DNA of 64,000 nucleotides from Mangrovicoccus ximenensis (GTDB taxonomy: Bacteria > Pseudomonadota > Alphaproteobacteria > Rhodobacterales > Rhodobacteraceae). The stretch covers positions 581,501 through 645,500 of the forward strand of contig NZ_QBKZ01000016.1 in the NCBI RefSeq assembly GCF_003056725.1, in the 5' to 3' direction. The position numbers and the translations under genes were made by a program. The first letter of the stretch is position 1. Each line of letters starts with the position of its first letter. Below are positions 489 through 30,031 of the stretch, one piece after another. The notes below the pieces were generated by a model. That model worked only from the letters and a program-made list of their open reading frames with translations, did no database searches and was not told where the DNA came from.

Positions 489-516
489 CGCGCGCAGGTG
501 CTGCTGGGCATCGGCA
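489..516 (+). repeat. 28-bp exact overlap with 29452-29479 (copy 1)
   Basis: Identical to the end of the segment that stops at 29479. The preceding base differs (g here, c there) and so does the following base. Both copies encode AQVLLGIGT in the same frame. It fits a de Bruijn overlap of k-1 = 28 better than a biological repeat. Confidence 0.85.
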
Positions 517-3436: not shown

Positions 3437-3945
3437 CCGAGCTCGGTCAGCCGCGCAATGGCCGCGCCTGTGCGCCCCTTGGCGCGCGCCTCCAGCCAGC
3501 GGCCGAGCAGGATCAGCGTGACGATCACCGCTGCGGCCTCGAAATAGACCTCGCGCGACCCTTCGGGCAGCAGCCCCGGCAGAAGCAGCGCAACCGTCGA
3601 ATAGGCCCAGGCCGCGGTGGTGCCGAGCGCGACCAGCGCATTCATGTCCGGCGCCCCCTTCAGGAGCCCGGGCCAGCCGCGCCGGTGGAAGCGCCGTCCC
3701 GGTCCGACCAGCACCGCGGTGGTCAGGACAAACTGGATGCCCCAGCTGGCCGGGATGCCGATCGTGTCCGCGATCCAGCGATGGACCGCCGGGACCATGT
3801 GCCCGCCCATCGCCAGCAGGAAGACCGGCAGGGTCAGCGCGCCGGCGAGGATAAGGTCGCGCCGCAGACCGGCCGCCTCGCCGTCCTGCTTCGGCGCGGG
3901 CGCGTCGAAACTGGCGGGGCGCGCAGGGAAGCCCGCATCAGCCAC
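3437..3945 (-). CDS. copA: Copper-transporting P-type ATPase, N-terminal membrane region
   Basis: Shows the first transmembrane hairpins of a P1B ATPase: LILAGALTLPVFLLAMGGHM, the GIQFVLTTAVLVGPGRRF helix, then PDMNALVALGTTAAWAYS and YFEAAAVIVTLILLGRWLE ahead of the actuator domain. It would export Cu(I) across the inner membrane. Heavy-metal-binding and phosphorylation domains lie outside the fragment. The gene is distinct from the CcoI-type ATPase at 14079-14608. Confidence 0.75.
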
Positions 3946-3983
3946 TTACGCGTCTAGCTGTCGAACTAGGGCTGCCCGGGGCG

Positions 3984-4212
3984 TCATGGACGTTGAAGGG
4001 CGCGAGTTCGGTGCAGGTCTCCAAGCCGGAGCCCGGTCTCGGCCACCGCGATAATGATTCGCGCGACGTGCTCCGGCGTTCTCTCGATGAACTTACCGAT
4101 CTCGTTGTCTAGCCAGATGATTTCCGCCTGGCCGGAGTGGTGAAGGCTTTTGATGCCGCGAAGCCGATGCTCGGTCAGGTCGCTGCGGTCGAAAGCCCAT
4201 GTCACGATTTCG
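3984..4212 (-). pseudogene. Tyrosine recombinase (phage integrase) fragment
   Basis: Encodes TWAFDRSDLTEHRLRGIKSLHH followed by IWLDNEIGKFIERTPEHVARIIIAVAETGLRLGDL, the core-binding to catalytic domain transition of phage-type integrases (ETGLRxGDL around the first catalytic Arg). The frame then degenerates and stops at 3984. Neither the N-terminus nor the H-x-x-R...Y box is present. It probably derives from a relic element. Confidence 0.5.
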
Positions 4213-4378
4213 GGCCTTTCTGCGCAACTGCGGCTGGGAGCCACGGGCGGCTCCGGAAGGGTGGCCGGCGGCCATGAGCAGACCGGCGAAGACCGCGTGC
4301 ACGGCCGCCAGCTGGCACAGCTGGCGCAGCGTTGCGCGACACCGGTCCGAGCGCAACGGCGAGCGAGGCTCGGACGCA

Positions 4379-4437
4379 TGTCAACGCCGAGTCAAAATGC
4401 CCCAGAAGTGCCGAAGTAAAATTCCCCACTTCGGACG
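4379..4437. mobile_element. Terminal sequence of an IS21-type element
   Basis: Begins TGTCAACGCC and carries two imperfect direct repeats of the form AAAATxCCCCA (around 4394 and 4419), like the multiple-terminal-repeat ends of IS21-family elements such as those ending TGTCAACG. No istA or istB coding sequence is present. The similarity fades at about 4437, which is also an expected seam. Identification is from memory of the family pattern. Confidence 0.45.
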
Positions 4438-7446: not shown

Positions 7447-7950
7447 TGGTCGGCGAAGCGGCGGCAGGCGGCGGCCATCCCGAGGCGGTGCAGCCCGGCC
7501 AGGCCGTGCGCATCTTCACCGGCGCCCCGGTTCCCGCGGGCGCCGACTGCATCGTCATCCAGGAAGACACCGAGCGCGACGGCGACCGGATCACCCTGAC
7601 CGACCGGCTGGGCGATGGCAGCCATATCCGCCCTGCCGGCGGCGATTTTGCCGAAGGCACCGAGATGCTCGCCGCAGGACAGCGGCTCGGCCCGGCCGAG
7701 ATCGCGCTCCTGGCCGCGATGAACATTCCCGCCGTCCTGGCGGCGAAGAAGCCCGAGGTCGCGCTGATCTGCACCGGCGACGAGCTGGTGATGCCCGGCG
7801 AGACCCCCGGCCCCTCGCAGATCGTCGCCTCGAACGCTTTCGGGCTGGCCGCGATGATCGAGGCGGCGGGCGGCACGGCGCGGATGCTGCCGATCGCCCG
7901 CGACACCGCGGAAAGCCTCGCCCAGTGCCTCGATCTCGCCGCCGGAGCCG
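7447..7950 (+). CDS. moeA: Molybdopterin molybdotransferase MoeA, central fragment
   Basis: Shows the MoeA hallmark VRIFTGAPVPAGADCIVIQED (Mg-binding Asp/Glu patch) followed by HIRPAGGDF, then the GGDE-like turn LICTGDELVMPGE of the MPT-binding domain. The enzyme inserts molybdate into molybdopterin-AMP in the cytoplasm. Start and C-terminal beta-barrel are cut off. A ModC fragment (37771) fits molybdenum use by this organism. Confidence 0.9.
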
Positions 7951-8455
7951 CCTCCGGCGGGATGCCGTGGCTCGCGCGGAAGCGGCGCGCCGCCTCCGGA
8001 CCGGGCTGCTGCTCGGCCGCGACCGGGTGGCCGACGAAATCGCAGCGCATCCCCTCGGCCTCCATGTAGGGCGGCTCGAATGGCAGGAGCGACAGCACCT
8101 GGTCGATCATCTTCGCCATCTTCTTCGCCCGGCCCGGGCGCCAGGCCCAGACCGAGGGGGCGACATAATGGATCGTGCGGATCCCGGGCGCCTTCGCCTT
8201 GACGAGCTTCGCCACGCGCAGCGAGAAATCCGGCGCATCGATCGTGATCAGGGCATCCGGTTTCGAGGCGATCACATGCTCGGCCGTCTGGTGCAGGCGC
8301 CGCCGCAGGTCCATGTAGCGCGGCAGCACCTCGGCAAGGCCCATCACGCTGAGCTCGTCCATCGGGAACAGGCTTGGCACGCCCGCCGCCTGCATCAGCG
8401 GACCGGCGATGCCGTCGAATCCCACGCCCGGCGCCAGATCGCGCAGCCCGGCCGC
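7951..8455 (-). CDS. lpxB: Lipid-A-disaccharide synthase LpxB, central fragment
   Basis: Typical LpxB order: an MAGLR-like strand with DLAPGVGFDGIAGPLM, then LMGLAEVLP region, DALITIDAPDFSLRVAKLVK, the invariant SVWAWRPGRAKKMAKMIDQVL and CDFVGHPV. It makes the beta-1,6 lipid A disaccharide at the inner membrane. It is cut at both ends, with no catalytic C-terminal domain. Confidence 0.92.
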
Positions 8456-8966
8456 CCTGCTGATGCGCGACCCGGACCCTGCCCCGGCAGCCGCCCCCGC
8501 GGCGGCAGAGACCGCGGGACCGGAGCTGCCGCTGGTGCCGGTCACCGTGCTCCTGAGCCTCGCGGTGATCTGCTGCTGCGCGCTGATGTCGGTGCCGCTG
8601 ATGCATCTGGTGCCGCTGGTGCAGGGCTGCGGCATCTCCGGACCCGAGGCCGGGCAGGTGATGCTGCTGATGATGCTCTCGGCGATCGCCGGGCGGATCG
8701 CCTTCGGACGGCTGGCGGACCGGGCCGGGGCCGTCCCCGCCTACCTGATCGCCAGCGCCTGGCAGACGCTCCTGGTCGCGGGGTTCGCGCAGCTCGGCGA
8801 TCTCGGGCAGTTCCGGCTCTTCGCGCCGATCTACGGCTTCGGCTATGCCGGGGTGATGACCGGCGTGCTGACCACGATCCGCGCGCTGGTCCCGGCCCGG
8901 CACCGCGCGGGCGCCAGCGGGGTGATCATCGCCTTCGCCTGGCTCGGCCACGGACTCGGCGGCTCC
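8456..8966 (+). CDS. MFS transporter, C-terminal half fragment
   Basis: Starts in the cytoplasmic middle loop (Pro/Ala-rich) and continues through helices resembling oxalate/formate-type MFS carriers: PVTVLLSLAVICCCALMSVPL, AGRIAFGRLADRAGAVPAYL (a second copy of motif A), then TTIRALVPARHRAGASGVIIAFAWLG. Substrate cannot be assigned. It ends inside TM11. Confidence 0.7.
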
Positions 8967-13893: not shown

Positions 13894-14078
13894 GCCGCCT
13901 CGTCCCGGGTGGCGGAGACGAAGACGTCTTCCAGGTTCGGGCGGGCCGGGGCGATCGCCGCTTCGGGCGGCAGATCGGCGGCGGCGCGCAGCCGGGCTTC
14001 TGGATCGGCGATGCTGCCTTCGACCAGCACCCGCAGCCGCGTGCCGATCTGCGCCGCCGACAGGATGCCCGCCCAGCG
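13890..14078 (-). CDS. ABC transporter ATP-binding protein, C-terminal tail
   Basis: Last 60 residues of an ATPase: RLRVLVEGSIADPEARLRAAA, then PARPNLEDVFVSATRD before the stop. The L-E-D-V-F-V-x-A-T ending is typical of ABC ATPases paired with ABC-2 permeases. Walker motifs are outside the fragment. It is translationally coupled to the permease. Confidence 0.75.
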   Translation of the reverse strand, partial: RWAGILSAAQIGTRLRVLVEGSIADPEARLRAAADLPPEAAIAPARPNLEDVFVSATRDEAA

Positions 14079-14608
14079 TGCCGGTCTTGTCGAAAACGGC
14101 CGTGTCGGTCTCGGCGAGCCGCTCCAGCGCGGTCGCGTCCTTGATCAGCAGCCCGCGGCGGAACAGCCGCCCCGACGCCGCCGTCGTCACCGCCGGAACC
14201 GCGAGGCCGAGCGCGCAGGGACAGGTGATGATCAGCACCGCCGCCGCGATGTTGAGCGCGACGCGCAGGTCGCCGGTGCCCGCGAACCAGCCGAGGAAGG
14301 CCAGCCCCGAGAGGATATGCACCCCGGGCGCGTAGAGCTTCGCCGCCTTGTCGGCCAGCGAGGAATATTGCGACCGGCCGCTTTCGGCGATCGCCACCAG
14401 GTCGGTCAGCGCATGCAGCGAGGTGTCCGCCCCCACCGCGGTCGCCCGCAGCACGAGCGGCCCGGTCAGGTTCACCTCGCCGGCCGAGACCTGCATCCCC
14501 GGCCCCGCCTGCACCGGCAGGGTCTCGCCGGTCAGCAGCGCGCGGTCGAGTTCCGACATGCCCTCGGCGATCTCGCCATCGACCGGGACCGCACCGGAAA
14601 TTGAACCG
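14079..14608 (-). CDS. ccoI: Cbb3-oxidase-type copper P-type ATPase (CcoI/FixI), central fragment
   Basis: Has TGE loop (LLTGETLPVQAGPG), the metal-site helix LIITCPCALGLAVPAV and phosphorylation motif FDKTGTL, with LADKAAKLYAPGVHILSGLAF between them. Sequence details (AESGRSQYSSLADKAAKLYAP) match FixI/CcoI, which supplies copper to cbb3 oxidase, better than CopA. It ends one residue after DKTGTL. Confidence 0.8.
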
Positions 14609-15635: not shown

Positions 15636-16145
15636 CCCGCATGGCCGACCGCCTGGCGGGCGCGAAGCCGGTCCGGCCCGACACCAACCTGAACCGCTTC
15701 GACCCGTTCGGGCTGCGCTATGTCGCGCTGATGCTCTTTGCCACCGGGCTGCTCTTCGGCTCGATCTGGAAGGCCGACACGATCGCGGGCATGGCGCCGG
15801 GCCGCGCCGATGCGCTGGCTGCCGGGCCGACCTGGGAGGGCTGGGTCGAGCCGCCGCGCTATACCGGCCAGCCGAGCCTCTATCTCGCCGACCTGCCGGA
15901 AGACGGCGTCGCCGTGCCGAAAGGCTCCAAGGTGATGGTCCGGCTCTATGGCGATGTCGGCGCGCTGACCCTGTCCGAGACCGTCTCGGGGCGCACCGGC
16001 GAGATCGGCAGCGCCGCCGACCCGGTGCAGGATTTCGAGGTGGCGCAGTCCGGCACGCTGGCCATCGAGGGGCCGGGCGGCCGCAGCTGGGAGCTGGAGG
16101 TGATGCCCGACAGCGCGCCGCAGGTCTCGGTGCAGGGCGAGCGGA
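15636..16145 (+). CDS. TIGR02302/DUF4175 membrane protein, fragment near N-terminus
   Basis: [26 protein letters not shown] is the second transmembrane helix of the alphaproteobacterial TIGR02302 family, followed by a periplasmic beta-rich part ([34 protein letters not shown]). The family's role is unknown; full proteins exceed 800 residues. Open at both ends. Confidence 0.7.
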
Positions 16146-16566
16146 CGGTGATCTGCTGGCTCTCCCCGGTGGAGCCGGGGATGCGGATGACATGGGCGCC
16201 GGGCTTGATCGCGATGAAGCTCAGCTCCACCGTGCCGGCCTTGTCGAATTCGATCGAGTCGACCGCCATCGGGCGGATCTCGATCTTGTTGATGACGATC
16301 TCGTTCATCCAGATCGCCCGGAAGAAGGACGGCCCCTCGATCGCCAGCTCCGCCGAGCCGTCGGCCGTGATCATCATCTTGTAGTAGGCGCCGGATTGCA
16401 GGACGACATCCTCGCCCAGCGGCTCGCCCGAAGCCAGCGTCAGCTCGATCGGCGCGCCGCGGTTGCACGAGGCCAGCAGGCCCGCGAAGCCCAAGTCGTC
16501 GCAGAGCGGCGCGGCGGCCGCGGGCGCGGCCAGCGCCAGGGCGGCCAGGGTGGTCAGGATACGCAT
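16146..16566 (-). CDS. Periplasmic protein of a PQQ/methylotrophy-type cluster, N-terminal part
   Basis: ATG at 16566, 8 bp after the stop of a YVTN-propeller gene. Signal peptide [18 protein letters not shown], then [17 protein letters not shown] (two Cys) and a beta-rich body with [19 protein letters not shown] recall such a protein next to PQQ-associated propellers in Paracoccus-like genomes. Its role is unknown. It is cut just before the C-terminus. Confidence 0.55.
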
Positions 16567-16573
16567 TTTCGCC

Positions 16574-16655
16574 TCACATGTCCGGTTGCACGACGACGCC
16601 CCAGGGCTGCTCGCCGACCTGGATCGAGCGCAGCGCCTTCTGCTGGGCGACGTCG
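16574..16655 (-). CDS. PQQ-associated YVTN beta-propeller protein, C-terminus
   Basis: Last blade: [17 protein letters not shown] then [12 protein letters not shown] and a stop. The V-I-D-(T/V)...P-x-G-x-x-P-W-G-V pattern is a YVTN repeat as in PQQ-dependent catabolism-associated propellers. It precedes the periplasmic protein and probably shares its transcript. Confidence 0.6.
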
Positions 16656-16821
16656 ATCACGGTGCCGCCACGGCCAGCCCGGCCAGCGGCCAGGCCCAGG
16701 CGGCGGCGGCCCCGCGTGTTAGCGCGAACGCGGTGTTGACCTTCACCGGCAAGCGCGTCAGCAAGCCGAGGGCGGCAGAAATGTCGCGCAGATCGAAAAG
16801 CGGTCCGGGGCGGGCAGGCAT
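16656..16821 (-). CDS. cobS: Cobalamin synthase CobS, N-terminus
   Basis: ATG at 16821, diverging from cobT. Reads [17 protein letters not shown] and then [14 protein letters not shown], the start of adenosylcobinamide-GDP ribazoletransferase, an inner-membrane enzyme of late B12 synthesis. Only about 53 residues remain. Divergence from cobT within one segment is genuine. Confidence 0.75.
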
Positions 16822-17187: not shown

Positions 17188-17720
17188 CCGGCAGACGCCG
17201 GTGGTGACCGCGAAGCTGTCGGTCTCGCCGCGCTCGGTCAGCGGCACCATGATCGAGGCCGCGGCGGCGGAGGCGGCGGTGATGCCCGGCACGATCTCCA
17301 CCTCGATCCCGGCGGCGCGGGCGGCGGCGATTTCCTCGGCGGCGCGGCCGAAGATCGACGGATCGCCGGATTTCAGCCGCACCACGCGGCGGCCCTTCAG
17401 CGCCTCGGCGGTGATCACCCGGTCGATCTTCTCCTGCGGCCAGGCATGCTGCCCGACTTCCTTGCCGACATAGATGCGGTCGGCATCGCGGCGGGCGAGT
17501 TCCAGCACCTCGGGCTCGACCAGCCGGTCGTGGAAGATCACGTCCGCCTCCTGCAGCCGCCGCACTGCCCGCAGCGTCAGCAGGTCGCGCGCGCCGGGTC
17601 CGGCGCCCACGAGCGAGATATGGCCCCTGGCCCCGGGCATTTCGCCGGTTTCCAGCGCGGCCTTCAGCATGTCGGCGGCGGCGCTTTCCCGGCCCGCCTC
17701 ATGCGCGCGGAACTCGACGG
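17188..17720 (-). CDS. cysG: Siroheme synthase CysG/uroporphyrinogen-III methyltransferase, fragment
   Basis: Linker [18 protein letters not shown], then [20 protein letters not shown] (SAM-binding start), [34 protein letters not shown] and [18 protein letters not shown]. The residues ahead of the methyltransferase domain point to a CysG-type fusion rather than stand-alone CobA. It makes precorrin-2. Cut shortly after [11 protein letters not shown]. Confidence 0.85.
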
Positions 17721-18238
17721 GCTGGAACCGGTCGGCACCAGATCGCTCGACGCGCATCTGGCGGATCTGCGCGCGCGCGTCGAGCTCTTGGCCCGCGGCG
17801 CCTTCGCCGATAGCGGCGTGCCGCTCTGGGACGGGCGCGACGGCGAGGCCGCCGAGAAGGCGATGAACGCGCTCGCGGAAGATGCCGGCCATGGCGGCGA
17901 GCTGGACGTGGTCACCTTCAATTCGGTGCTGCGCGGCTCGATGTCCGAAGAGGTCCGCGACCCGACCCTGCCGCACCCGGGCGTGATGATCTGGGGCACG
18001 CTCGAGGCCCGCGTCCAGGGCGCCGAGCTGGTGATCCTCGCAGGTCTCAATGACGGCGTCTGGCCCGAGCAGCCCGAGCCCGACCCCTGGCTGAACCGCG
18101 CGATGAGGAAGGCCGCCGGGCTGCTTCTCCCGGAACGGCGGATCGGCCTCGCGGCGCATGACTTCCAGCAGGCAGCGGGGGCGCCGCAGGTGGTTCTGGC
18201 CCGCGCCAAGCGCTCGGCCGAGGCCGATGCCGTGCCGA
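17721..18238 (+). CDS. addB: Double-strand break repair protein AddB, fragment
   Basis: Contains HPGVMIWGTLEARVQGAELVILAGLNDGVWPEQPEPDPWLNRAMRKA-type sequence (given here in parts: WGTLEARVQGAELVILAGLN; DGVWPEQPEPDPWLN), then ERRIGLAAHDFQQAAGA. This is the inactivated-helicase core of alphaproteobacterial AddB. With AddA it processes DNA ends for recombination. Open at both ends. Confidence 0.85.
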
Positions 18239-18760
18239 AATCGCCCTCGAGCCCGTGGCCGACCGCCTCGTGCAGCATCACGCCCGGCCAGCCGGCGCCG
18301 AGCACGACATCCATCTGGCCCGCAGGCGCGGGGACGGCCTCGAGATTCACCAGCGCGATGCGCAGCGCTTCCTTCACCGAGGACTGCCACAGCGCCGGGT
18401 CGAGCAGCCCGGTCAGCGCGGTGCGGCCGCCGCCGCCGGCATTGCCGCTCTCGCGGCGGCCGTCCTGCTCGACGATCACCGAGACCGACAGCCGGGTCAT
18501 CGGGCGGGTGTCCTCGACCATGTGTCCGTCGGCGCGCAGGATCACCACCTGCTGCAGAGAGGCCGCGATGGTCGCCGAGACCTGCACCACGCGCTTGTCG
18601 AGGTCGCGGGCGAAGGCGTCGATCTCGCGCAGCGTCTCGACCTTCACCGGGAAGGCGGCATCCTCGATCGGGTCGAATGCCTTGTAGAGATGCCGGTTGG
18701 TGCCCTGCGGCGCATCCGCCATCACGCCGCCGCCATCGCCGACGGCGAGCCGCGCGGTCG
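18239..18760 (-). CDS. tldD: Metalloprotease TldD, central fragment
   Basis: PQGTNRHLYKAFDPIEDAAF precedes RLSVSVIVEQDGRRESGNAG and the metal site VMLHEAVGHGLEGDF (HExxxH). TldD with TldE/PmbA cleaves peptides such as modified bacteriocin precursors in the cytoplasm. It is cut right after the HExxxH helix. Confidence 0.9.
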
Positions 18761-19280
<520 letters not shown>

Positions 19281-19816
19281 CCGGCGCAGCCGCCGTGCTC
19301 GGCGGCTGGCCCGACCAGGCGATGAGCCGCACCGTCGATCTCTTCATGGCGCTGCCGCCGCTGATCCTGGCGCTGCTGGCGCTCTCGGTCACCGGCACCT
19401 CGTTGGTCACGCTGACCCTGGTCGCCGCCTTCCTCGCCGCGCTGCGGGTGTTCCGGCTGTCGCGCGCGCTGGGGCTCGACCTTGCCACCCGCGATTTCGT
19501 CGACATCGCGCGGCTCCGCGGCGAAGGCACGCTCCGGATCGCCGCCTGCGAGATCCTGCCCAATGCCGCCGGGCCGCTGATTGCCGAGGCCGGGCTGCGC
19601 TTCGTCTTCGCCTTCCTTTTCGTCGCTTCGCTCAGCTTCCTCGGGCTCGGCGTGCAGCCGCCGATGGCCGACTGGGGCGGGATGGTGCGCGAGAATGCCG
19701 GCGCGCTGAACTACGGCGGCATCGCGCCGCTGGTCCCGGCCGCGGCCATCGCGCTCCTGGCCATTTCAGTGAACCTGCTCGGCGACCGGGCGGCAGGCGG
19801 GAGGACGGGCCGATGA
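19281..19816 (+). CDS. Peptide/nickel ABC transporter permease (DppC-like), C-terminal part
   Basis: MSRTVDLFMALPPLILALLALSV, an EAA-like loop around RGEGTLRIAACEILPNAAGPLI, then FVASLSFLGLGVQPPMADWG and a closing helix. A stop at 19814-19816 overlaps an ATG (ATGA) that probably starts the cognate ATPase gene, lost within about 10 codons. It is an inner-membrane importer subunit. Confidence 0.85.
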
Positions 19817-20066
19817 AGGTTCCACGGAGCGCATTGCCACGGCGGCGGCCGGGATCAGCCCCGCGGCGCGATTACCCCGTTCGAACTCGCGGCGATTGCC
19901 CCATCCCCGGAATTGGGCCGGTCACCCTGGCTGATGGCGGCCCTTGGCGCGCCTTCCGGCACGGAGATGCCGCGGCATCAGGTCCGGGACGGCGATGCGC
20001 CTGGGACCTGCCACGGGATTTTTCCTCCACCGCCGATTAGAGACCGGCCCAACTTGAGGACGGACA

Positions 20067-20338
20067 ATGAGGCAAACGCGGTTCACGGACGAGCGGATCA
20101 TCGGCATCCTGGCCGCGCGCGCGGCCGGTGCGACGTGTGCGGATCTGTGCCGCAGACACGGCATGTCGGAAGACCTTTTATGATTGGAATGCCAAGTCCG
20201 GCGGCATGACCGTGTCCGAGGCGAAGCGGCTGAAGACGCTCGAAGACGGGAACGCCAAGCTGGAGAATCTGCTTGCCCCGCAAATGCCAGCTCTCGCCGC
20301 GATGAAGGAGCTTGCTTCAAAAAGTGGTGAAGTGGTGA
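20067..20338 (+). pseudogene. IS3-family OrfA with internal frameshift
   Basis: ATG at 20067: MRQTRFTDERIIGILAARAAG then ADLCRRHGMSE, the HTH of IS3 OrfA. Before the expected TFYDWNAKSGGM two bases are missing (gaagaccttttatgatt), giving an early stop; the zipper part continues in another frame (EAKRLKTLEDGNAKLENLLA). No OrfB follows. The 240 bp upstream (19825-20066) may hold the element's left end but no repeat was recognised. Confidence 0.75.
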
Positions 20339-20340
20339 CG

Positions 20341-20753
20341 CCTGCCGTCCAGCGGGTCTCCAGCCGCACGCCGCGTTCCGCGAGCCGGCCCAGCCAGGCG
20401 CGCAGCAAGGGCGAGGCCTTCATTTCCTTGGGGAACACCCGGCCGGTCGAGCCGGCGAAAACCTCGCGCCCGAGCCCGCGCATCCAGTCCTGCACCTCGG
20501 CGGGCCCGAACTCGGCCAGCATCGGCGTGAGCCGGCCCGCACCCTCGCCATAGGCGGCAAGGAAGCGTTCCGGCGGCTCGTCCTTCGTGATGTTCAGACC
20601 GGATTTCCCGGCCATCAGCAGCTTGCGGGCCGGCGTCGGCATGGCCTCGGCGACCAGCACGGCATGCCCGGCTGCCGACAGCATCTCGGCCGCCATCAGC
20701 CCGGCCGGGCCGGCGCCGATCACCAGCGCGTCTGTGCGCAAGGGCTCTGCCAT
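20341..20753 (-). CDS. HI0933/YhiN-family flavoprotein, N-terminal part
   Basis: Start at 20753: dinucleotide-binding motif ALVIGAGPAGLMAAEMLSAAG, followed by RKLLMAGKSGLNITKDEPPE (family-specific GKSGLN/GRCN motif) and FAGSTGRVFPKEMKASPLLRA. It binds FAD; the physiological reaction is unresolved in this family. It is cut at about residue 137. Confidence 0.85.
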
Positions 20754-20770
20754 GCTGCCTCCTTGATCCT

Positions 20771-20794
20771 CGCCCCCGTCTTACCGCGGGGGCG
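20771..20794. terminator. GC hairpin between two minus-strand genes, possible terminator
   Basis: cgcccccg pairs with cgggggcg across an 8-base loop. It lies 18 bp upstream of the flavoprotein start and downstream of a C-terminal scrap on the same strand. No T-tract follows, so intrinsic termination is doubtful. Confidence 0.3.
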
Positions 20795-20815
20795 GCGGAG
20801 GCTCCAGAGGCCGGC

Positions 20816-20860
20816 TCAGCCGTTGAAGGTCAGCGGGATCCGAAAGCGGTGGCTCGGCGC
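20816..20860 (-). CDS. C-terminal tail, TonB-like
   Basis: Ends RGFEAPSHRFRIPLTFNG and a stop. The P-x-x-F...(I/V)P-(L/V)-x-F ending resembles TonB-type C-terminal domains, but 15 to 18 residues are too few for certainty. Confidence 0.25.
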   Translation of the reverse strand, partial: APSHRFRIPLTFNG

Positions 20861-20861
20861 C

Positions 20862-21440
20862 TCGAAGCCGCGCGGGGCGCGGGCGGGCTGGTGATCAATG
20901 CCGACAGCGCGGTGCCGGGCCGGATCGGCGAGCTGACCGTGCGCGACGCGGCGGCGGAGACGGCCGCTCCGGCCGTGGTCCGCGGGACGCCCTCGATCGA
21001 GGCGGATCAGTTCCGTGCCATCCTGCTGCAGAAAGACAGCGTGATTTCCGCCCGCGACCAGCTGATCAGCACGCGCACGGCGGAACTCGTGCAGGCCAAT
21101 GCCCGCGCCGAGAGCCTCGAGGTGCAGCTCGGCACTGCCACCGAGCGCGCCGAGTCGGCCGAGGACGAGGTCGCCCGGATCAAGGCGGCGCAGTCGGAAC
21201 CGGCCGAGGTCACCAAGGTGATCGGCGGGCTCGGCTCGAAGCTGGCCGAGGCGAACGAGGCGCTGCAGGGCAGCGCGCTGCCCTTCCGGCTGGGTGCGGT
21301 GAAGGTCGATCTGCGCGGACGGATGACCAATGACGGCACCGGCATCGTGCTGGGCGAGGCGGCCCGCGACGGCTCGGGCTTCTCGGCCGAGCTGTTCGTC
21401 GACCGCCCCGGCCTGCTGGCGGGCAGCTCGGCCATGGAGG
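20862..21440 (+). CDS. Coiled-coil protein of unknown function, fragment
   Basis: After VINADSAVPGRIGELTVRD comes a heptad-rich segment (ISARDQLISTRTAELVQANA then LEVQLGTATERAESAEDEVARI) and a beta-rich end FRLGAVKVDLRGRMTNDGTG. No signal peptide is seen because the start is missing. I do not recognise the family; a phage structural or scaffold protein is possible. Confidence 0.5.
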
Positions 21441-21944
21441 CGATGCGCAGGGCGCTGCAGACCCTGCGGTCGGCGCCGCGGCTCATCTGTCATTCTGGCC
21501 GCGGAGGCCAGTGCGCGGCCGATTGCGGACGGCTGCCGGCGCCTTGGAACGCCGCGGCCTCGATGAGCGGAAAGGGGGATTGCCGCGAGTTCGAGCTGGT
21601 TCGCGCGACCATTCGAAGGTGCGGAACGCGCCGATGGAGAGCGCCTTCGGCTCCTCGAAGAGCGGGCCGGTCCGCCGCACCCGGCTAGGGCCGCGCGGCG
21701 ACGCCAAGATGGCCCCGTTCGGGTGCACCGCGATTCGGGCATTTCAGGCCGGATGTCGGAGCAGGCAAGGACCGACATGGCCGCCATGGTGGCCGCATCG
21801 CGAATATCGGCCCGGTCTGGGCGCCGGGGAAATGTCGCAGTGCCCGGGCGGCTTCGGGCCGTGGTCGGCCTTTGGGGCAGGGCAGCGCCCCTGCGGTGCG
21901 GAGGGGTGGCGCCGGTCGCGGTGTCGGGCCTCCTGCGGACGCCG
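21441..21944. other. Segment without recognisable genes
   Basis: GC-rich; frames on both strands are Arg/Pro-rich and motif-free. No RNA, repeat or promoter noticed. Confidence 0.45.
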
Positions 21945-22505
21945 TGGCCTCGGCGCGGGCCGCGACCTCGAGCGGCGCATCGCGGTCCGAGGTGTCGGAC
22001 TTGCCGATCCGCCCGGCGGAAATCTCCACGGCGCCGCCATCGGGCGCGGTCATGCCCGCACTGTCGAGCGCCACCGCCAGCTGATGGTCCTGCAGCGAGA
22101 AGAAGCCCCCGGCATTCTCGACCTCGGGCAGGCCCGGCACCGGCAGCGCCCGGCCATCGGCAAAGCGGAAGGTCAGCCCGATTTCGGGCTTGCCCGTCGC
22201 ATCGAGCCGGAGCGACAGGCGCGCGTCGCGGATATCGCCCTGCAGGACATTCTCCAGCGCCCATTTGCGCGAAGGCGGCGCCACGCCCGGCGGCCAGAGC
22301 GCACGGACATCCTCCACCGCCAGCGCATCGGCGCGCGCGTCGAGCTGCATCCGCCAGCAATCGGGCAGGAACTTCCGGCTGGGCGCCGCAGCAGCGGTGC
22401 AGCGCAGCGGATCGGGAAGCTGCACCCCGCCCGAGACCTCGACCGCTGCCGTGTCCGTGACCAGCCAGCTCTCGCGCAGCGCCCCGACCGCTTGGCCCGA
22501 CGGCA
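21945..22505 (-). CDS. AsmA/YhdP-like protein (DUF3971), fragment
   Basis: Long alternating beta pattern without motifs of catalysis: WRMQLDARADALAVEDVRAL, WPPGVAPPSRKWALENVLQGDI and GDIRDARLSLRLDATGKPEIG match the DUF3971 domain of AsmA-like envelope proteins, which bridge membranes and carry phospholipids. Open at both ends. Confidence 0.7.
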
Positions 22506-22999
22506 GGCCCCTGACCCTCCGGGCACACGGTACCGCAACGCCCGGCGGCCTGCCTCTCGGTGCCCGGGGAGGAATTGCGGGGGCGGATTGGAGAGTTCCC
22601 GCCCCGCTGGCACGGAGGCCCGTCGGGCGGCAGGATCCGTCCGCTCGCCGCGCCGTCCCGTGCAAGCCTCCGGTGCCGTCCCCGCATCGGAAGCCACGAT
22701 GCGACCCGTCGCGCGCAATCTGCGCCGGAGACCTCGGACGATCCGACTGACTGCTGAAGGGAAGCTGCCGCAGAACGCCTGCCGGGACACCCCGCGGCAG
22801 CGCCATGCCGTCTCCCTCAGGCCCGCAGCATGGCATCGCCATCGACAGGGAGAGCGGCCTTGGCGACCTGGCCCGTCTCGTCCGGCGGCGGGACCTTCGC
22901 CGCCACCGGCAAGTCACATGCGCAGCCGAGCTTGCCGGGCGGAATGCCGAGACCTCCGGCGTGCCAACCGCCTGCGGCAGGCAGGCTGGTGCCGGACGC
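22506..22999. other. Segment without recognisable genes
   Basis: High-GC DNA between an AsmA-like fragment and a PhnM fragment. Candidate frames lack family resemblance. No structured RNA was seen. Confidence 0.45.
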
Positions 23000-23534
23000 C
23001 TGCCGAGGTGGCCCTGCCCGGGTGCACCGTGCTGCCGGGGATCATCGACCTGCATGGCGACGGCTTCGAGCGGCATCTGGCGCCGCGGCGCGGGCTGGTC
23101 TCCGATCTGGGGCGCGGCCTGGCGGCGCTTGACGCGGAACTGGCGGCGAGCGGCATCACCACGGCGGTGCTGGCGCAGTTCTGGTCCTGGGAAGGCGGCA
23201 TGCGCAGCCCGGATTTCGCGAAGAAGCTGGCCGTGGCGCTGGAGGAAGCGCGGCCGCATCTGCTGACCGACATGGTGATCCAGCTCCGGCTGGAAACGCA
23301 TCTGACCGACCAGTTCGGCGAGGTGGCGGCGTTCGTCGAACGCCACGGCATCGGCTATGTCGTCTATAACGACCATCTGCCGCACGAGGCGCTGAAGAAG
23401 GGCCGCAATCCGCCGCGGCTGACCGGGCAGGCGCTGAAAAGCGGACGCAGCCCAGAGGCGCATCTCGCGCTCATCCGCGAGCTGGCGGCGCGCGACGCGG
23501 AGGTGCCGGGCGCGCTGGCGGAGCTGTCGCGGCG
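23000..23534 (+). CDS. phnM: Ribose 1-methylphosphonate 5-triphosphate diphosphatase PhnM, fragment
   Basis: Amidohydrolase metal motif in GCTVLPGIIDLHGDGFERHLAPRRG (H-x-D variant typical of PhnM), then ASGITTAVLAQFWSWEGG and YVVYNDHLPHEALKKGRNP. PhnM removes pyrophosphate in the C-P lyase pathway of phosphonate use. C-terminus missing. Confidence 0.88.
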
Positions 23535-23535
23535 C

Positions 23536-23875
23536 TCATGCGGCGCCGCCGCCCGGCTGGAAATCCGACAGCCGGTACCGGCTGCCGCTCGAAGGCGCCG
23601 AAAGCCTGACGGAGGCCGGCGCCCGCGTCGCGGCGCATCTGCGGCAAACCATGGCCGAACAGGGCGCGCCCGGGCAGCTGACCGTCTTCGCCGGCCATGG
23701 TGCGTCCTTCCGCCACGCTGCGCACCATCTCGGGCTGCTTAAATCTGACGAAATCGCTCAGCTATCCATGCACCACGCCAAAGCGTTGCTGTTCTGTTAC
23801 ACGCGCCATGATAGGTGGCATCACCTTGTCGGCGACTGGAAGGTCCGGCCTGCGGCGCAGCAGCCGCGCGACTGA
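23536..23875 (+). CDS. Histidine phosphatase-family protein, C-terminal part
   Basis: Frame 2 reads SDSRYRLPLEGAESLTEAGARVAAH then LTVFAGHGASFRHAAHHLGLL, with the distal catalytic His in FAGHGASFRHA, and ends naturally. The RHG signature at the N-terminus is absent. Substrate unknown. Confidence 0.6.
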
Positions 23876-23904
23876 CCGGCCCGGCCCAACCGAAAGGCCC
23901 GAAC

Positions 23905-24050
23905 GTGGACTCTCTCGCCCGCCCGTCCCGTCCCGCTGCCGGGCTTCTTCCGCCGGTCTTCGACACCGCCGCGGACCTACCGGACCTGCCGAGGGTGACC
24001 GAACCCTGGCCCTGCGCCGCGGATCCGGGCTTGGGCCCCTGCCTCGCAAG
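23905..24050 (+). CDS. N-terminal fragment of unidentified protein (GTG start)
   Basis: GTG at 23905, 29 bp after the phosphatase stop: VDSLARPSRPAAGLLPPVFDT then ADLPDLPRVTEPWPC. It is Pro-rich with no known domain. The downstream genes are lost at the seam near 24060. Confidence 0.3.
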
Positions 24051-24065
24051 GGTCCGCCGCCATGG

Positions 24066-24600
24066 CGGCTGGCCTTGCGCAGTCGGTGGGCGGCGGCGGC
24101 GGCACCGGCGGCGACAACTCCGTGCTGCCCGACGGCTCGACGGCCGACGAGCAGGACCCGGAGAATGACTACACCCCGCCCAGCCTGACGCTCGGCGCGA
24201 ACCTGACCTCGATCAGCGCCAATGGCAGCGCCGGGAATGGCGGGCGCGTCGCGCTGTCCTCGGCCGAGGCTCTGGAGGGGAGACAGATCGTGGCGACGCA
24301 GGGCGGACAGGCCCATGCCGTCGCGCTCCAGTCGGTGGGCGGGGGCGGCGGGCTCTTGGCCCGCGGCGGCTCGGTCGATGTCGCGAATGACGACAGCGAC
24401 ATCTATCCGACCGCAACGGTCCGCCTCGGCAACCAGGGGCTCTCGGCCGGCAATGGCGGCGCCATCGACACGACCGGTCTGACCGCGGAGACGCCGCTGG
24501 CGCTCTCCACGTCCGGGACCGGGTCCTTCGGCCTGCTGGCCCAGTCGGTCGGCGGCGGCGGCGGCCTGCTCTCGGCCTCGAACGGGCATGTCCTGACCTC
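24066..24600 (+). CDS. Autotransporter-like passenger with AQSVGGGGG repeats
   Basis: The motif (A/L)QSVGGGGG occurs three times (about residues 3, 92 and 160 of the fragment), spaced by Asn/Gly-rich beta strands such as GNGGAIDTTGLTAETPLAL. This repeat is typical of large type V autotransporter adhesins of alphaproteobacteria. Signal peptide and beta-barrel are outside. Confidence 0.75.
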
Positions 24601-25098
24601 GCTCCATCCCCGCGGCGATGCCGGCGCCGATCAGCGCGCCCAGCACCGCATGGGTGGTGGAGATCGGCGCGCCGATCCAGGTGGCGAGGTTCAGCCAGAG
24701 CGCGGCGCCCAGCACCGCCGCCATCAGCGCGCGGACATGCATGGCGCGTTCGCTGTAGCCGGGCGGGTCGATGATGCCGGTCGAGACGGTGGTGATCACT
24801 TCCTTGCCGCCGATCAGCGCGCCCGCGCTTTCGAAGATCGCGGCGATCGCGATGGCGCCGCCCATGGTCAGCGCCTTGGCGCCGACCGCCGGGCCCATGT
24901 TGTTGGCCACGTCGTTGGCGCCGATGTTCAGCGCCATGTAGGCGGCGAAGACCGTGGCGGTGATGATCAGCATGTCCTCGGGTGCCGTGCCGACCGCGAT
25001 GGCGGCGGCGATCCCGGCGAGCGCGAGGAACACGAGGCCCAGCCCGGCCGCAGCCAGCGGGCGGACGGCATAGATGCTGGCAGCTTCGAGCGTGGTGA
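24601..25098 (-). CDS. Inorganic phosphate transporter PitA-type, fragment
   Basis: First PiT signature ALNIGANDVANNMGPAVGAKALTMG and later LNLATWIGAPISTTHAVLGALIGAGIA, with the family's symmetric half-repeats between. It imports phosphate with protons or metal at the inner membrane. Cut inside both the N-terminal loop and the second half. Confidence 0.92.
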
Positions 25099-25099
25099 C

Positions 25100-25595
25100 G
25101 CGGCGGAGGTCCGTTCTGGTCGCGCTCGACGCGGAGACCGGCGAACTCGGGCGCATCGAGCAGCACCGCCGCCTCGGGCAGGTTCGGCGTGACATGGGTG
25201 GCGACGGGCAGCAGATGCGTGCGCAGCGCGGCGACCGCTTCGGCGGCCAGCAGCGAGGCGCCGCCCTTGGCCACCATCACCGGGTCGAGCACCACCGGAA
25301 TGCCCGCATGCGGCTTCAGCGCATCGGCCACGGCTTCGGCAATCTCCGCGGTGGCGATCATGCCGATCTTCACGGCATCGACCCGCACATCGGCGAAGAC
25401 GGCCGCGATCTGGGCGGCGACGAATTCGGCGGGCACCATGTGCACGCCGGTGACGCCTTGGGTGTTCTGCGCGGTCAGCGCGGTCAGCGCCGCCATGCCG
25501 TAGCAGCCGCGCGCCGAGATCGCCTTCAGGTCGGCCTGGATGCCGGCGCCGCCCGAGGGGTCGGAGCCGGCGATGCTGAGCACGTTGCGGATCAT
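25100..25595 (-). CDS. thiD: Hydroxymethylpyrimidine/phosphomethylpyrimidine kinase ThiD, N-terminal part
   Basis: Start at 25595 overlapping the thiE stop (ATGA). Reads VLSIAGSDPSGGAGIQADLK, then GMAALTALTAQNTQGVTGVH, VDAVKIGMIATAEI and VVLDPVMVAKGGASLL. It phosphorylates HMP for thiamine. The catalytic Cys/Asp C-terminus is missing. Coupling to thiE is real. Confidence 0.95.
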
Positions 25596-25692
25596 GCGTC
25601 CCTCGCTTTCTTAATGGCATGGGCCAGCACGCGGGCGGCGCGGGCCGGATCGGGGCGGCCGCAGATCGCCGAGACGACGGCCGCCAGCACCT
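25592..25692 (-). CDS. thiE: Thiamine-phosphate synthase ThiE, C-terminus
   Basis: AVVSAICGRPDPARAARVLAHAIKKARDA (given in part: AVVSAICGRPDPARAARVLA) matches the last phosphate-binding strand and helix of ThiE (usual GIAVVSAI...DP...A). It ends in the ATGA overlap with thiD. The identification rests on 30 residues plus context. Confidence 0.6.
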
Positions 25693-25801
25693 CGCCCGGC
25701 CGGAGATCGAGCGTCAGCCCCGAGAGCCGCGTCACCTCCTCGCGGCGCAGCAGTCCGGCATAGCGGCGGAAGCCGACGGAAAGGCCGCGCAGGCTCAGCA
25801 T
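25690..25801 (-). CDS. Peptide/nickel ABC transporter ATPase, N-terminus
   Basis: Start at 25801 overlaps the permease stop: MLSLRGLSVGFRRYAGLLRRE then RLSGLTLDLRPGEVLA, stopping just before the Walker A loop, where ThiE sequence takes over. It was probably the DppD-type partner of the permease at 25795-26225. Confidence 0.65.
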
Positions 25802-26225
25802 TGCGCCTCGCGCGGGCTGGCAAGGCGGCGCGCCGCGCTGCCCAGCATCTCGAAGGCCAGCACCATCGCCATCAGCATCGCGCCCGGAAACAGCCCGAGC
25901 CACCAGCGCCCGGCGCTGAGATGCCGCATCGCCTCGGACAGCATCACCCCGATCGCCGGGCGCGAGGGTTCCAGCCCGAAGCCGAGGAAGGTCAGCCCCG
26001 CCTCGTGCAGGATCGCATGCGGGAACATCAGGAGCCCGCCGACCAGGATCTGCGGCGCCAGATGCGGCAGGATGTGGTGCCTCGCGACATGCAGGCGCGA
26101 GCGGCCGAGCGCCAGCGAGGTCTCGACGAAGGGCGCGGCCTGCACCTGCTTCAGCTCGGCGCGCAGGATGCGGGCGAGGCGCGGCCAGTGGCTCACCGCG
26201 ACCGCGAGGATCACCGCCGCCAGAA
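25795..26225 (-). CDS. Peptide/nickel ABC transporter permease, C-terminal part
   Basis: LAVAVSHWPRLARILRAELKQ, then VETSLALGRSRLHVARHHILPHLAPQILVG (EAA loop), HAILHEAGLTFLGFGLEPSRPAIG and a last helix to the stop at 25795. Coding is translationally coupled to the ATPase. The HEAxLTFLGFGL motif matches nickel/oligopeptide importers. Confidence 0.85.
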
Positions 26226-26730
26226 GCCGCCGCCTGGCGCGACCTGACCGGCCGCGGCGAGCGGCTGGCCCTCGGCGACGAAGGCAGCCAGCGGATCGAC
26301 CTGCCCTTCGCCGTCACCTTCTTCGGCCGCAGCTTCGACACGCTCACCGTCACCGCGAACGGGCTGGCGAGCTTCGGCACGCCGCGCGGCACCTATGACA
26401 TCCGCAGCATGGAGGGCGCCCCCGCCTGGTCGATCGCGCCGCTCTGGGCCGACCTGACCACGGAGTATGGCGGCCAGGTCATCTGGCTGGCCGAGGAGGA
26501 CCGGGTCACGGTGCAATATGCCGGGGTGCGCAGCTTCTCGGGCGAGATCCGCGCGAGCTTTTCGATGGAGCTGCGCCGCGACGGCGACATCGCCTTCTCC
26601 TATGGCGACAGGACCGGCCTGCCCGGCGACTTCGCCATCGGCCTGCGCGGCGGCACCCGCGGCGACAGCCTGTCGCTGGAGGCCCCGCCCGGGGCCGGAA
26701 GCCTGCGGTTCTCGTTCCGGCCGCCCTCCG
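26226..26730 (+). CDS. Beta-rich extracellular-type protein, fragment, unknown
   Basis: Reads IDLPFAVTFFGRSFDTLTVT, NGLASFGTPRGTYD, then IAPLWADLTTEYGGQVIWLAEEDRVTVQ. The F-x-G...N-G-x-x-S-F-G...P-x-W-x-D-L layout is shared by nidogen-like or peptidase-associated exported domains. No catalytic motif is seen. Open both ends. Confidence 0.5.
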
Positions 26731-27203
26731 TGGCCGGGGCAGATGTCGATGCCGGGCCGGGCCAGCTGCTGCGCATCGCCGAAGGCCTGCTGCGCGGGCA
26801 GGGCGGCGATTACGGCGCGCCGGACATCCGCGGCATGATGGCGAAATCCCGCGCGCTCTTCGTCTCCGACTTCCTCGGGCCGATGGACCGGGTGGAGGCG
26901 GCGCTGACCCAGGCCGCGGACCGCGGCGTGCGCGGCGCGCTCCTGCAGGTGCTCGATCCCGAGGAGGAGGCCTTCCCCTTCGACGGCCGCACCGTCTTCG
27001 AGAGCATGGGCGGCGGGATCGCCCATGAGACGCTGCAGGCTGCCAGCCTGCGCGGCCGCTACCTGGAGCGGCTGGCCGAGCGCAAGGCGCGGCTGGCCGA
27101 TCTGGCGCGGTTGACCGGCTGGCAATTCGCCTGCCACCATACCGGCGAGAGCGCGCAATCGGCGCTGCTCTGGCTCTACGGCGCGATGGAGAAGACCCGC
27201 TGA
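26731..27203 (+). CDS. DUF58 protein, C-terminal part
   Basis: ALFVSDFLGPMDRVEAALTQA and GVRGALLQVLDPEEEAFPFDGRTVFES are the vWA-like end of DUF58 proteins, with GWQFACHHTGESAQSALLWLY at the C-terminus. DUF58 proteins act with MoxR AAA ATPases in envelope or metal-cofactor assembly. The stop overlaps the next start (TGATG). Confidence 0.8.
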
Positions 27204-27303
27204 TGCTGACCCTCGGCCCCCTGGGATTCACCGCCCCGGCGCTGCTCGCGGCGCTCCTGGCGCTGCCGGTGCTCTGGGTGATCCTGCGCGCGGTGCCGCC
27301 CGG
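27203..27303 (+). CDS. DUF4159/BatA-like membrane protein, N-terminus
   Basis: MLTLGPLGFTAPALLAALLAL then PVLWVILRAVPP is the first helix of the DUF4159 family, coupled to DUF58 by an overlapping TGATG. Lost at about residue 33; the piece at 981-1470 is likely a later part of this gene. Confidence 0.75.
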
Positions 27304-27304
27304 G

Positions 27305-27503
27305 CATCGTCGCGCAGGACCTCGAGCAGCGCGTCGAGCTCGCTGCCGGCGGCGGCGCCGTCAGCCTGGCTGCCACCGCTGTCCTGCGCGGTTTCCTGCT
27401 GGCTGGCTTGCGGCAGTCCCGGCAGCAGCGACTGCGCCGGGGCCTGGGTGACATGGAGGGCGATCAGAAGGACCGGCAGCAGCCGCAGGAGCATCGGTCT
27501 CAT
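27305..27503 (-). CDS. Exported protein N-terminus, mechanosensitive-channel-like
   Basis: Start at 27503: signal peptide MRPMLLRLLPVLLIALHVTQAPA, then a low-complexity linker and LDALLEVLRDDARA. This resembles the periplasmic start of DUF3772/MscS-type channels (LxxLLxVLRDDxxR). The remainder is missing. Confidence 0.5.
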
Positions 27504-27850
27504 GCGGCGGCTCCCGGACGGCGGCAGGAAAGAGGGACGGGGGGAACGGCTGCTGCCGGAGCTTCCCGGCAGGACATGCCGAACAATGGAATCATCTTCA
27601 GGTCTTCTCTTGCGTCAGGCTCTGGTTCAGGTCTGGCGGATCGTCTGGGCGACGGGCCCGCGGGAAAACGCCGGGCGCGGGAAAAGGTTCCGCAGCGCAG
27701 CGTGCTTTGCCCCTTCTCGGAAGGCCGCGCCGCCAAGTCAACTGCGCGATGCCGGACCGGCAGGCTCCTGCCCATGGTGCCGCGGCAGCAGGCAGGCGCC
27801 CGGCCGGGACCGGCGCGCGGGTGAGGGTCCGGGAGAGGGCGGGCCGTGAC
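27504..27850. other. Upstream region of the exported-protein gene, no gene seen
   Basis: No conserved frame. Moderately lower GC around 27580-27640 (aatggaatcatcttcaggtc) could include the promoter of the minus-strand gene, but no sigma-70 pair is convincing. Confidence 0.4.
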
Positions 27851-28390
27851 GACCGCGGCGGCGGCGGGCCTCGGGGAACCGGGCCGCCCGGTGCTGCAGT
27901 TCGATGCGGCGGATGCGGCGGGCGGGCATGTCGTGGATCCGGGCCTTGCGGCCGCGGCGACGAGCTTCACGCTGGTCTACGATCTGCTGATCCCGGCAGG
28001 CCAGTCGGGCTATGGCGGCCTGGCCCAGTTCGGTACGCAGAACGGCGACGATGCCGAGCTGTTCCTGAACGGCGACGGCAGCTTCGGCATCGGCATCTCG
28101 GGCCAGTATGACGGCGCGGTCGCCGCCGATGCCTGGGTGCGGCTGGCCTTCGCCGTCGAGGACCGGGGCGACGGCAGCTCGGTCCTGTCGAAATACATCG
28201 ACGGCGCCCTTGCCGGCACGCAGGTCGTCGAGACCGGACGGTTCACCGTGGGGCCCGAGGGCTTCCTGATCCTCGCCGACAATGACGGCGAGACCTTCGG
28301 CGGCTACCTCGCCAATTTCGCCTTTGCCGCGACCGCGCTCGACGCGGCGGCGGTGGCCGCGCTCGGCGGCGCGACCGCCGAGGCGATCCC
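27851..28390 (+). CDS. LamG/concanavalin-like domain protein, fragment
   Basis: Jelly-roll strand pattern: TSFTLVYDLLIPAGQSGYGG, DAWVRLAFAVEDRGDGSSVL, KYIDGALAGTQ, FLILADNDGETFGGYLANFAF. This is a LamG-type fold as in secreted adhesins or Ca-binding exoproteins. No signal peptide is visible. Confidence 0.6.
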
Positions 28391-28940
28391 AGGCCGCGGC
28401 GGCCGAGAAACTCGCCGATCGCGGCGGCAATGGCCGCCGCCGCGGCCGGATCGAGATGGAAATGATGGTCTCCGGCGATCTCCAGCCGTTCGAGATCCGG
28501 CACCAGCGCCTGGCCGAGCCGCGCCAGCTCCGCCACGGCGGGCCGGGAGGCCAGAATGCCGCGCTCCGCCCAGATGTTGAGAACCGGGCAGCCGATCGCG
28601 CGCAGGACCGCCTCGATCTGGGGCCGTGTCAGCTTGACCGCCGAACTTGCGAAGAGGCGCCGGTCGCCGCGCATCCGCACGCCCTCCGGGAGCGTCTCGA
28701 GCGCGCGTTCGGCCAGAGCTTCGGCGGTGCGGCGCGAATTTCCCTGTCCGCAGCGCCGCCGGATGTAGTCCTGCGGCCCGGCAAAGGTCCTCGGTGGCCG
28801 GGCGGTTTGCTTGCGGGTGTCCTCGATGAAGGCCCGCAGGGTTGCGGCGACATCCTCGCCCGCAGGCTCCGGCACCAGCGAGTCGAGGGCCACCAAGCCG
28901 CGCACCCGCTCCGGCTGGGCCGCGGCCAGGAGCGGTGACG
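28391..28940 (-). CDS. Alpha/beta hydrolase, C-terminal half
   Basis: RVRGLVALDSLVPEPAGEDV follows where the nucleophile elbow would be; later CPVLNIWAERGILASRP and the His loop AGDHHFHLDPAAAAAIAAAI (catalytic His). Cap domain of RRRCGQGNSRRTAEAL type lies between. Substrate unknown. Confidence 0.75.
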
Positions 28941-29150
28941 GCCGGGCTTTGGCACGAGCGCAGCGGCACGGAATGGCCGCTCGATGTGCGGTCGCTCGGC
29001 GGCGGGCTCTACGAGGTCAGCATGACGGCCGCGGCCACCGCCGCGCTGCCGCTCGGCGTCTTCACTGCCCGCACCACCGCATCGGACGCCGCCAGCGGCG
29101 AGGTCTTCCGCAAGCGGGCCAACTACATCTTCATGGGGGACGACGCATGA
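28941..29150 (+). CDS. Prophage protein, C-terminus
   Basis: LWHERSGTEWPLDVRSLGGG then VFTARTTASDAASGEVFRKRA and NYIFMGDDA before a stop that overlaps the next ATG. Likely the structural gene directly upstream of the tail gene at 29149; function unassigned. Confidence 0.45.
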   Translation, partial: AGLWHERSGTEWPLDVRSLGGGLYEVSMTAAATAALPLGVFTARTTASDAASGEVFRKRANYIFMGDDA

Positions 29151-29479
29151 GCGGCGAACATTTCGGGGGCGGCCCGGCGGGCAAGAGCTTTGCCGAGACC
29201 TGGAACGAGGTCCACGGGACCGATCTGGACGAGGCGGGCGCCATCGCGGCGCTGAAGGACGAGATCCTCGCCGCGCTCGCGGGCGACGGCGTGCTGCCGC
29301 CGACCGTGCCGGAGGCCTTCGGCACCGCCGACTGGACCCTGGCTGGCACGGAATCCGATGCGGGCGACGCGCTGATCCTCGAGATCCTCTATCTGCCCGA
29401 GGACGGCCGGTCGCCGGTCACGCGGCTCGAATGGCGGGTCGGCGGCGGCGCCGCGCAGGTGCTGCTGGGCATCGGCACC
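29149..29479 (+). CDS. Prophage tail/host-recognition protein, N-terminal part
   Basis: ATG at 29149 in the overlap ATGA. Reads MSGEHFGGGPAGKSFAETWN, then LPPTVPEAFGTADWTLAGTE and TRLEWRVGGGAAQVLLGIGT. It continues exactly into the fragment at 489 through a 28-bp identity, giving a protein of at least 270 residues: a Trp-rich N-terminal domain followed by Ig-like repeats. Confidence 0.65.
29452..29479 (+). repeat. 28-bp exact overlap with 489-516 (copy 2)
   Basis: Terminal 28 bases of this segment; identical to the first 28 bases of the segment that begins at 489, in the same reading frame. The following base (c) differs from the genuine continuation (g at 517). Confidence 0.85.
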
Positions 29480-29606
29480 CCGCGCCGTGATGCGGCGAGG
29501 GCTGCGCCAGGCGGCGGAGCTGGCCTATGGCCGCGTCATCGCGCCCCTGGTCTACCGCCGCCACCTGAGGCGCAAGCGGCTGGCCAGCCGCCCTGGCCCG
29601 CGCTAG
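29480..29606 (+). CDS. C-terminal tail of unidentified basic protein
   Basis: One frame reads MRRGLRQAAELAYGRVIAPLV then YRRHLRRKRLASRPGPR and stops. Arg-rich, 30 bp upstream of the intact 79-aa gene. Too short to name. Confidence 0.4.
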
Positions 29607-29636
29607 CCTCAAGGGGACAAACAGGAGGCCAAGCCC

Positions 29637-29876: not shown

Positions 29877-29879
29877 CAA

Positions 29880-30029: not shown

Positions 30030-30031
30030 GC

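Follow-up and report, generated by a model that had tools for sequence, protein, structure and literature searches.

An exact repeat of 28 nucleotides in the genome assembly of Mangrovicoccus ximenensis is very probably an artefact of assembly, in which short contigs were put in order of length and appended to a scaffold, and the two pieces that carry the repeat are true neighbours within one gene. The stretch analysed here, referred to as the window, is 64,000 nucleotides long and corresponds to C8:581501-645500 of an assembly of 5,971,869 bases in 34 contigs; positions without a contig label are those of the window, and its features are given on the forward strand. What was observed is a chain of pieces, their sort order, the 28-mer at the ends of two of them, the continuity of the protein across those ends, and a commonest overlap near 35 nucleotides.

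The repeat, CGCGCAGGTGCTGCTGGGCATCGGCACC, occurs as an exact direct repeat at 491-518 and 29452-29479, the starts of the two copies lying 28,961 bases apart. The outer bases are unlike on both sides (before the repeat, G at 490 and C at 29451; after it, G at 519 and C at 29480), and in the whole assembly of 34 contigs there are only these two copies, both forward. An earlier note on this DNA had described an exact 28-bp repeat with differing outer bases, which is what we found; it had placed the left copy at 489-516, two bases too low, and the right end at 29479, which is correct. The repeat is not a product of chance. By base composition, 2.2e-6 repeats of this length are expected in the window, and the longest exact repeat per simulated window was 17-23 nucleotides in 40 order-3 Markov simulations. 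Among the window's exact direct repeats only a 6-bp microsatellite, at 31 nucleotides, is longer.

There is no N in the window and the limits of its pieces carry no marks, so the segments had to be demonstrated separately, which was done through matches to relatives. Three genomes of the same genus (G001, G002 and G003) were compared with positions 1-40,000 and 44,001-64,000 of the window. Four further stretches of C8, namely the 20 kb before the window, the first 20 kb of the contig, 461,501-481,500 and 541,501-561,118, were compared with G001 and G003 only. The matches break at regular places, such as 489/490, 978/979 and 1961/1962, giving blocks at 2-489, 979-1477, 1962-2457, 3440-3936, 7949-8456, 14074-14588, 16143-16663, 17713-18236, 18237-18763 and 19286-19818, and further ones likewise, and adjacent pieces map to separate places in all three relatives. 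The same pattern of breaks was found in 20,001-40,000 (among the matches listed), in 44,001-64,000 and in the 20 kb before the window. In the first 20 kb of C8 and in C8:461,501-481,500, collinear matches among those listed extended over as much as about 10 kb, and C8:541,501-561,118 gave blocks of about 0.9-3.5 kb that match five or six different places in G001 and G003. Because the blocks are longer upstream on C8, the start of the chain is placed near C8:561,119-562,140; from about there it runs to the contig end at 645,861, that is, over the last ~84 kb of C8.

The pieces of this chain become longer along the contig. Among the longer matches to relatives, distances between adjacent boundaries below 700 bases, with both neighbours matched, were, in order along the contig, 472, 467, 477, 484, 484, 523, 522, 524, 524, 524, 529, 557 and 548. 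Segmentations were computed from the longer matches to relatives rather than from all matches, with lengths limited to 400-660 and the contig end imposed as the last boundary. The best score was 210.1 with ascending lengths and -68.2 with descending lengths, and 276.5 when no order was required. The ascending segmentation has about 158 pieces of about 450 to 627 bases, a count that excludes its first piece (400 bases, at the limit and unsupported), and 100 of its 160 boundaries are directly supported; boundaries are accurate to a few bases. On the match breaks and the segmentation together, the whole window (1-64000) is part of an ascending-length chain. Spacers are absent from it, a single N (C8:581500) having been seen in the part of the remaining chain that was read. 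The G+C content is 0.714-0.727 in the chain (the window and the 20 kb before it) and 0.673-0.685 in the preceding 100 kb (C8:461,501-561,500), a difference that would be expected if GC-rich stretches had broken the assembly. Pieces 979-1477 and 26762-27305 belong to one locus in the three relatives (G003:C35, G001:C101 and G002:C80), where they lie about 0.7 kb apart, as against about 25 kb here.

The two copies of the 28-mer lie exactly at the limits of such pieces. The left copy forms the 5' end of one piece (piece B, 491-978), and the right copy forms the 3' end of another (piece A, 28935-29479, whose start is uncertain by several bases and follows a match that ends at 28934). Around the left copy, the preceding piece (1-490) derives from an unrelated locus, 78% identical to G001:C13:47663-48150 over 2-489, where the match ends; the piece that follows piece B (979-1477), also from an unrelated locus, is 87% identical to G003:C35:38938-38439. 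After the right copy, the matched start of the next piece (29480-29870), again from an unrelated locus, is 88% identical to G003:C272:6002-6391, and this G003 contig continues after 7 bases into sequence that is found here on C9. The relatives' matches therefore stop at 489 and begin at 29480, and the segmentation boundaries at 490 and 29477 fall within 1 and 3 bases of the piece ends given by the 28-mer. With the ends of the chain's pieces compared in both orientations, no end-to-end overlap but that of the 28-mer pair reaches 15 nucleotides. Seven other end overlaps, of 13-14 nucleotides, were found, somewhat more than in 20 control runs with shifted boundaries, which gave 0-3 overlaps of at least 13 nucleotides each and a longest overlap of 16 nucleotides, with slightly fewer boundaries. 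The claim that the window is built of abutted segments, two of which share the 28-mer as an end, is thus borne out by the match breaks and by the segmentation.

When piece A is placed before piece B with the 28 bases counted once, the reading frame is kept. Piece A contains the end of an upstream gene, followed by an ATG at 29147 from which the frame is open to 29479 (the first 111 codons of the split gene, 29147-29479) and continues at 519. Piece B, which has an open frame from 492 that extends past its end into the following piece, encodes the second half of a domain that we take to be Fn3-like and then repeats that we take to be Ig-like; its limits follow from the relatives and its content from translation and matches to five PHROG families. 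A start at 29149 had been proposed and is 2 bases off, but the single continuous frame across the join stands.

Homologues support one protein that crosses the join and runs into the Ig-like repeats, as the earlier note had it. With a query of 99 amino acids spanning the join, which falls after residue 56, unbroken matches were obtained to a protein of another genome, G079 (residues 2-96, E 2.8e-10), to Paracoccus phage vB_PmaP_KLEP18-1 (3-88, E 1e-7), to a Desulfofustis phage (23-88, E 2e-4) and, at residues 1-88, to proteins on two plasmids of Rhodovulum (E 4e-5 and 2e-4). Of 149 genomes of the family, two gave a match to the joined domain, namely G079 and the window's own genome, where the halves lie apart. 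When the halves are aligned separately they adjoin in the homologues: in KLEP18-1 the first extends to residue 149 and the second starts from 150, in G079 the first ends at 149 and the second starts at 158, and in Rhodovulum sp. MB263 the first ends at 290 and the second starts at 294. The matches across the join and the adjoining halves show that the proposed join is correct.

The findings on the kind of protein point in more than one direction. The Ig part in piece B matches five PHROG families (E 1.7e-11 to 1.6e-5), three of them tail/head and two of unknown function. Neither PHROG nor Pfam gave a match to the first half alone at E 0.1, and piece A alone had no match among phages at 1e-5; a scan of genome contigs with piece A in its correct frame found no relative. 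Pfam gave no match for either half or for piece 2-490 at E 0.1, or for the joined domain at E 1, and PHROGs gave none for the upstream gene fragment or the joined domain. The KLEP18-1 homologue is annotated as structural and lies after putative tail fibre genes. The Rhodovulum plasmid homologue has a CpsD/CapB kinase and a chain length-determining protein in its vicinity, which is not a phage context. The description as a prophage tail gene therefore agrees with the structural homologue in a phage and with the tail/head families on the Ig part, but sits less well with the plasmid homologue beside capsule-type genes and with an unmatched first half. Elsewhere on C8, an open frame of more than 1,300 codons on the minus strand (472,871-476,938) contains an Ig-like repeat that resembles piece B (59% in one comparison, 65% over 71 residues in another). 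This frame starts abruptly; its upstream side shares 25 nucleotides with C27:8365, and the sequence there looks to us like a transposon end. It is possible that the split gene continues in this frame.

The length of the overlap was compared with the lengths of exact repeats across the assembly. Exact repeats of at least 22 nucleotides were collected on both strands from 2,342,912 of the 5,971,869 bases (39% of the assembly), leaving out two contigs that consist of N. The counts exclude pairs on one contig separated by less than 3,000 bases, k-mers with about 40 or more occurrences and 2 pairs at the edge of a stretch, and also 550 pairs with similar flanks, in which the commonest lengths were 22-26 (14 pairs at 28, 34 at 29 and 15 at 35). 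The pairs with unlike flanks, here called isolated repeats, number 362. Half of them (182 of 362) are 22-24 nucleotides long, the commonest lengths; from there the counts fall to a minimum at 30 and rise to a second peak at 35, with no peak at 28. By length, the counts are 74 at 22 nucleotides, 70 at 23, 38 at 24, 16 at 25, 16 at 26, 18 at 27, 12 at 28, 8 at 29, 4 at 30, 6 at 31, 9 at 32, 13 at 33, 19 at 34, 33 at 35, 14 at 36, 4 at 37 and 3 at 38, with five longer. When repeats of at least 26 nucleotides are grouped into 81 families by their longest member, 35 is the length in 17 families, 36 in 12, 34 in 9 and 28 in 5. A smaller count over 1,942,912 bases agrees (121 isolated pairs of at least 24 nucleotides: 8 at 28, 13 at 34, 15 at 35 and 3 at 36). 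Some of the repeats in the 34-36 excess look biological, presumably transposon ends and motifs of ATP-binding cassettes.

In the chain, isolated repeats gather at the piece boundaries: 26 of the 38 rows that touch the chain, two of which are the 28-nucleotide pair itself, lie within 4 nucleotides of a boundary, compared with 3.2% of random intervals. These repeats fall at 22 distinct boundaries, and the longest overlap at each measures 34-38 nucleotides in 11 of them, 32 in one, 28 in three and 22-26 in seven. An overlap of exactly 35 occurs at 6 of the 22, and two of the three 28-nucleotide cases are the two copies described here; overlaps of 22-28 nucleotides at 10 of the 22 boundaries mean that 35 is the mode and not a rule. 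For example, the first 35 nucleotides of the piece at 55191-55796 (55191-55225) are an exact match to C7:379306, and on G003:C113 this piece matches from 73889 and C7 up to 73923, an overlap of exactly those 35 bases. Taking the mode and this case together, true neighbours in the assembly usually share about 35 bases, and 35 could be k or k-1 of the assembler. With 39% of the assembly compared, most of the pieces' true neighbours may lie in the rest of it. Two further pieces show recurring starts: the first 34-36 nucleotides of piece 3937-4434 recur at C27:8758 and C8:261393, and those of the piece from 47458 at C27:8495 and C1:62551. Part of the former (about 4210-4378) has matches at many sites of the relatives, and both pieces resemble fragments of transposons.

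It had been inferred from the 28-bp overlap that the assembler used a de Bruijn graph with k=29, whose neighbouring contigs would always share k-1 = 28 bases, with many exact 28-bp matches between segment ends as the proposed test. The two copies of the 28-mer do coincide with ends of pieces, and another boundary, at 61882, also shares 28 nucleotides with C4 (61880-61907 with C4:35980, the only other isolated exact match of this length at a piece boundary of the chain). Yet just one pair of ends among the chain's own pieces shares 15 nucleotides or more, isolated repeats show no excess at 28 in 39% of the assembly (12 of 362, against 33 at 35), and the boundary overlaps are 34-38 nucleotides in 11 of 22 cases against 28 in three. 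The repeat-length histogram and the end-to-end comparison led us to reject k=29, which we regard as improbable. A false join, produced by a chance or paralogous match of 28 nucleotides between unrelated genes, is less probable still: the genome is GC-rich and has 362 isolated repeats of at least 22 nucleotides in 2.34 Mb, but the simulated windows reach no further than 23, the pair is the sole end-to-end overlap above 14 nucleotides among the pieces, and homologues cross the join.

Two exact direct repeats whose inner ends join into one gene are also what a genuine element of about 29 kb would leave on integration, with 28-bp att-like repeats and an excision that restores the tail gene on a circle. 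Such an element calls for an interior that is collinear and flanks that are adjacent in relatives lacking it, and both are absent. The interior consists instead of dozens of unrelated pieces of about 500 bases in ascending order of length, the chain continues on both sides, and the outer flanks lie on different contigs of G001 (C13 and C188). With the interior and the flanks being the same kind of chain, this explanation was rejected and is given practically no weight. A reciprocal exchange between two genes at the 28-mer, in which the outer flanks would form one gene, was rejected on the same placement of the flanks on C13 and C188.

The sequence of events that best accounts for the window would begin with an assembly, probably of short reads, that left many short contigs. 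Those of about 450-627 bases would then have been sorted by length, presumably by a script or tool, and attached, with no spacers between them, behind a larger scaffold. Pieces A and B, about 29 kb apart in the chain, are neighbours in the genome, and the 28 bases that they share belong to one gene, whose product is structural or tail-like and has Fn3-like and Ig-like parts. The observed overlap is shorter than the usual one (28 against a mode of 35), and is best read as too short to be joined, probably an overlap limited by coverage to less than the assembler's joining length.

The fault seems to extend beyond the chain. Two relatives, G003 (on C113) and G001 (on C68), have parts of C20, C19, the window, C7:379-381k and C7:357-359k next to each other in a common order; here the same parts are spread over five places, of which C7 contributes two. 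Since neighbours in the relatives are scattered and C8:541,501-561,118 matches several places, the main scaffolds also seem to be built of abutted contigs without spacers, not ordered by length in the parts examined, and some of the breaks in them could be real rearrangements. Contigs C11 (2,076 bases) and C34 (2,051 bases) are N over their full length. At C5:1297-1355 a run of about 36 G is followed by a C-rich run, with a perfect palindrome of 42 nucleotides at C5:1314; such a sequence is unusual for a true genome and may be one more fault of assembly.

The repeat is an artefact of assembly and not biology: the observation and the rejoining made earlier were right, and the inference on k was wrong. 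With 84% completeness, the genome is presented in 34 contigs, the longest of 1.16 Mb; over the final ~84 kb of C8, at the least, its gene order is meaningless. As the pieces are about 500 bases long, most genes in the chain must be cut, and readings of gene neighbourhood, synteny, fusion proteins or mobile elements in it will mislead. The artefact is useful for quality control, the histogram of repeat lengths being a quick test for such assemblies. It is conceivable, if somewhat doubtful, that the same fault, with short contigs sorted by length and glued without spacers and scaffolds made of abutted contigs, also occurs among the other public genomes that represent species. If so, the affected genomes would look far more contiguous than they are, and an excess of isolated exact repeats at a single length would be a simple fingerprint by which to find them and reorder their pieces.

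Several known systems resemble these findings in part. The Fn3-like domains of KLEP18-1 gp25 (OM654376.2) and of WP_080618364.1 from plasmid pRSMBB of Rhodovulum sp. MB263 match the joined protein straight across the join, differing from it in that identity is about 35-44%; their neighbouring genes differ as well, being putative tail fibre genes in KLEP18-1 and capsule-type genes on pRSMBB. Contig overlaps in de Bruijn graphs share with the present assembly exact common ends of pieces, unrelated flanks and a single-length mode, here 35; at 28, the pair of pieces A and B falls below that mode and is probably not a standard overlap of graph neighbours. A further parallel is the overlap below k at a gap in coverage: contigs overlapping by less than k-1 are described as leading to a coverage gap and a break (PMC5539191). 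Both cases concern true neighbours with a short exact end overlap below the usual length.
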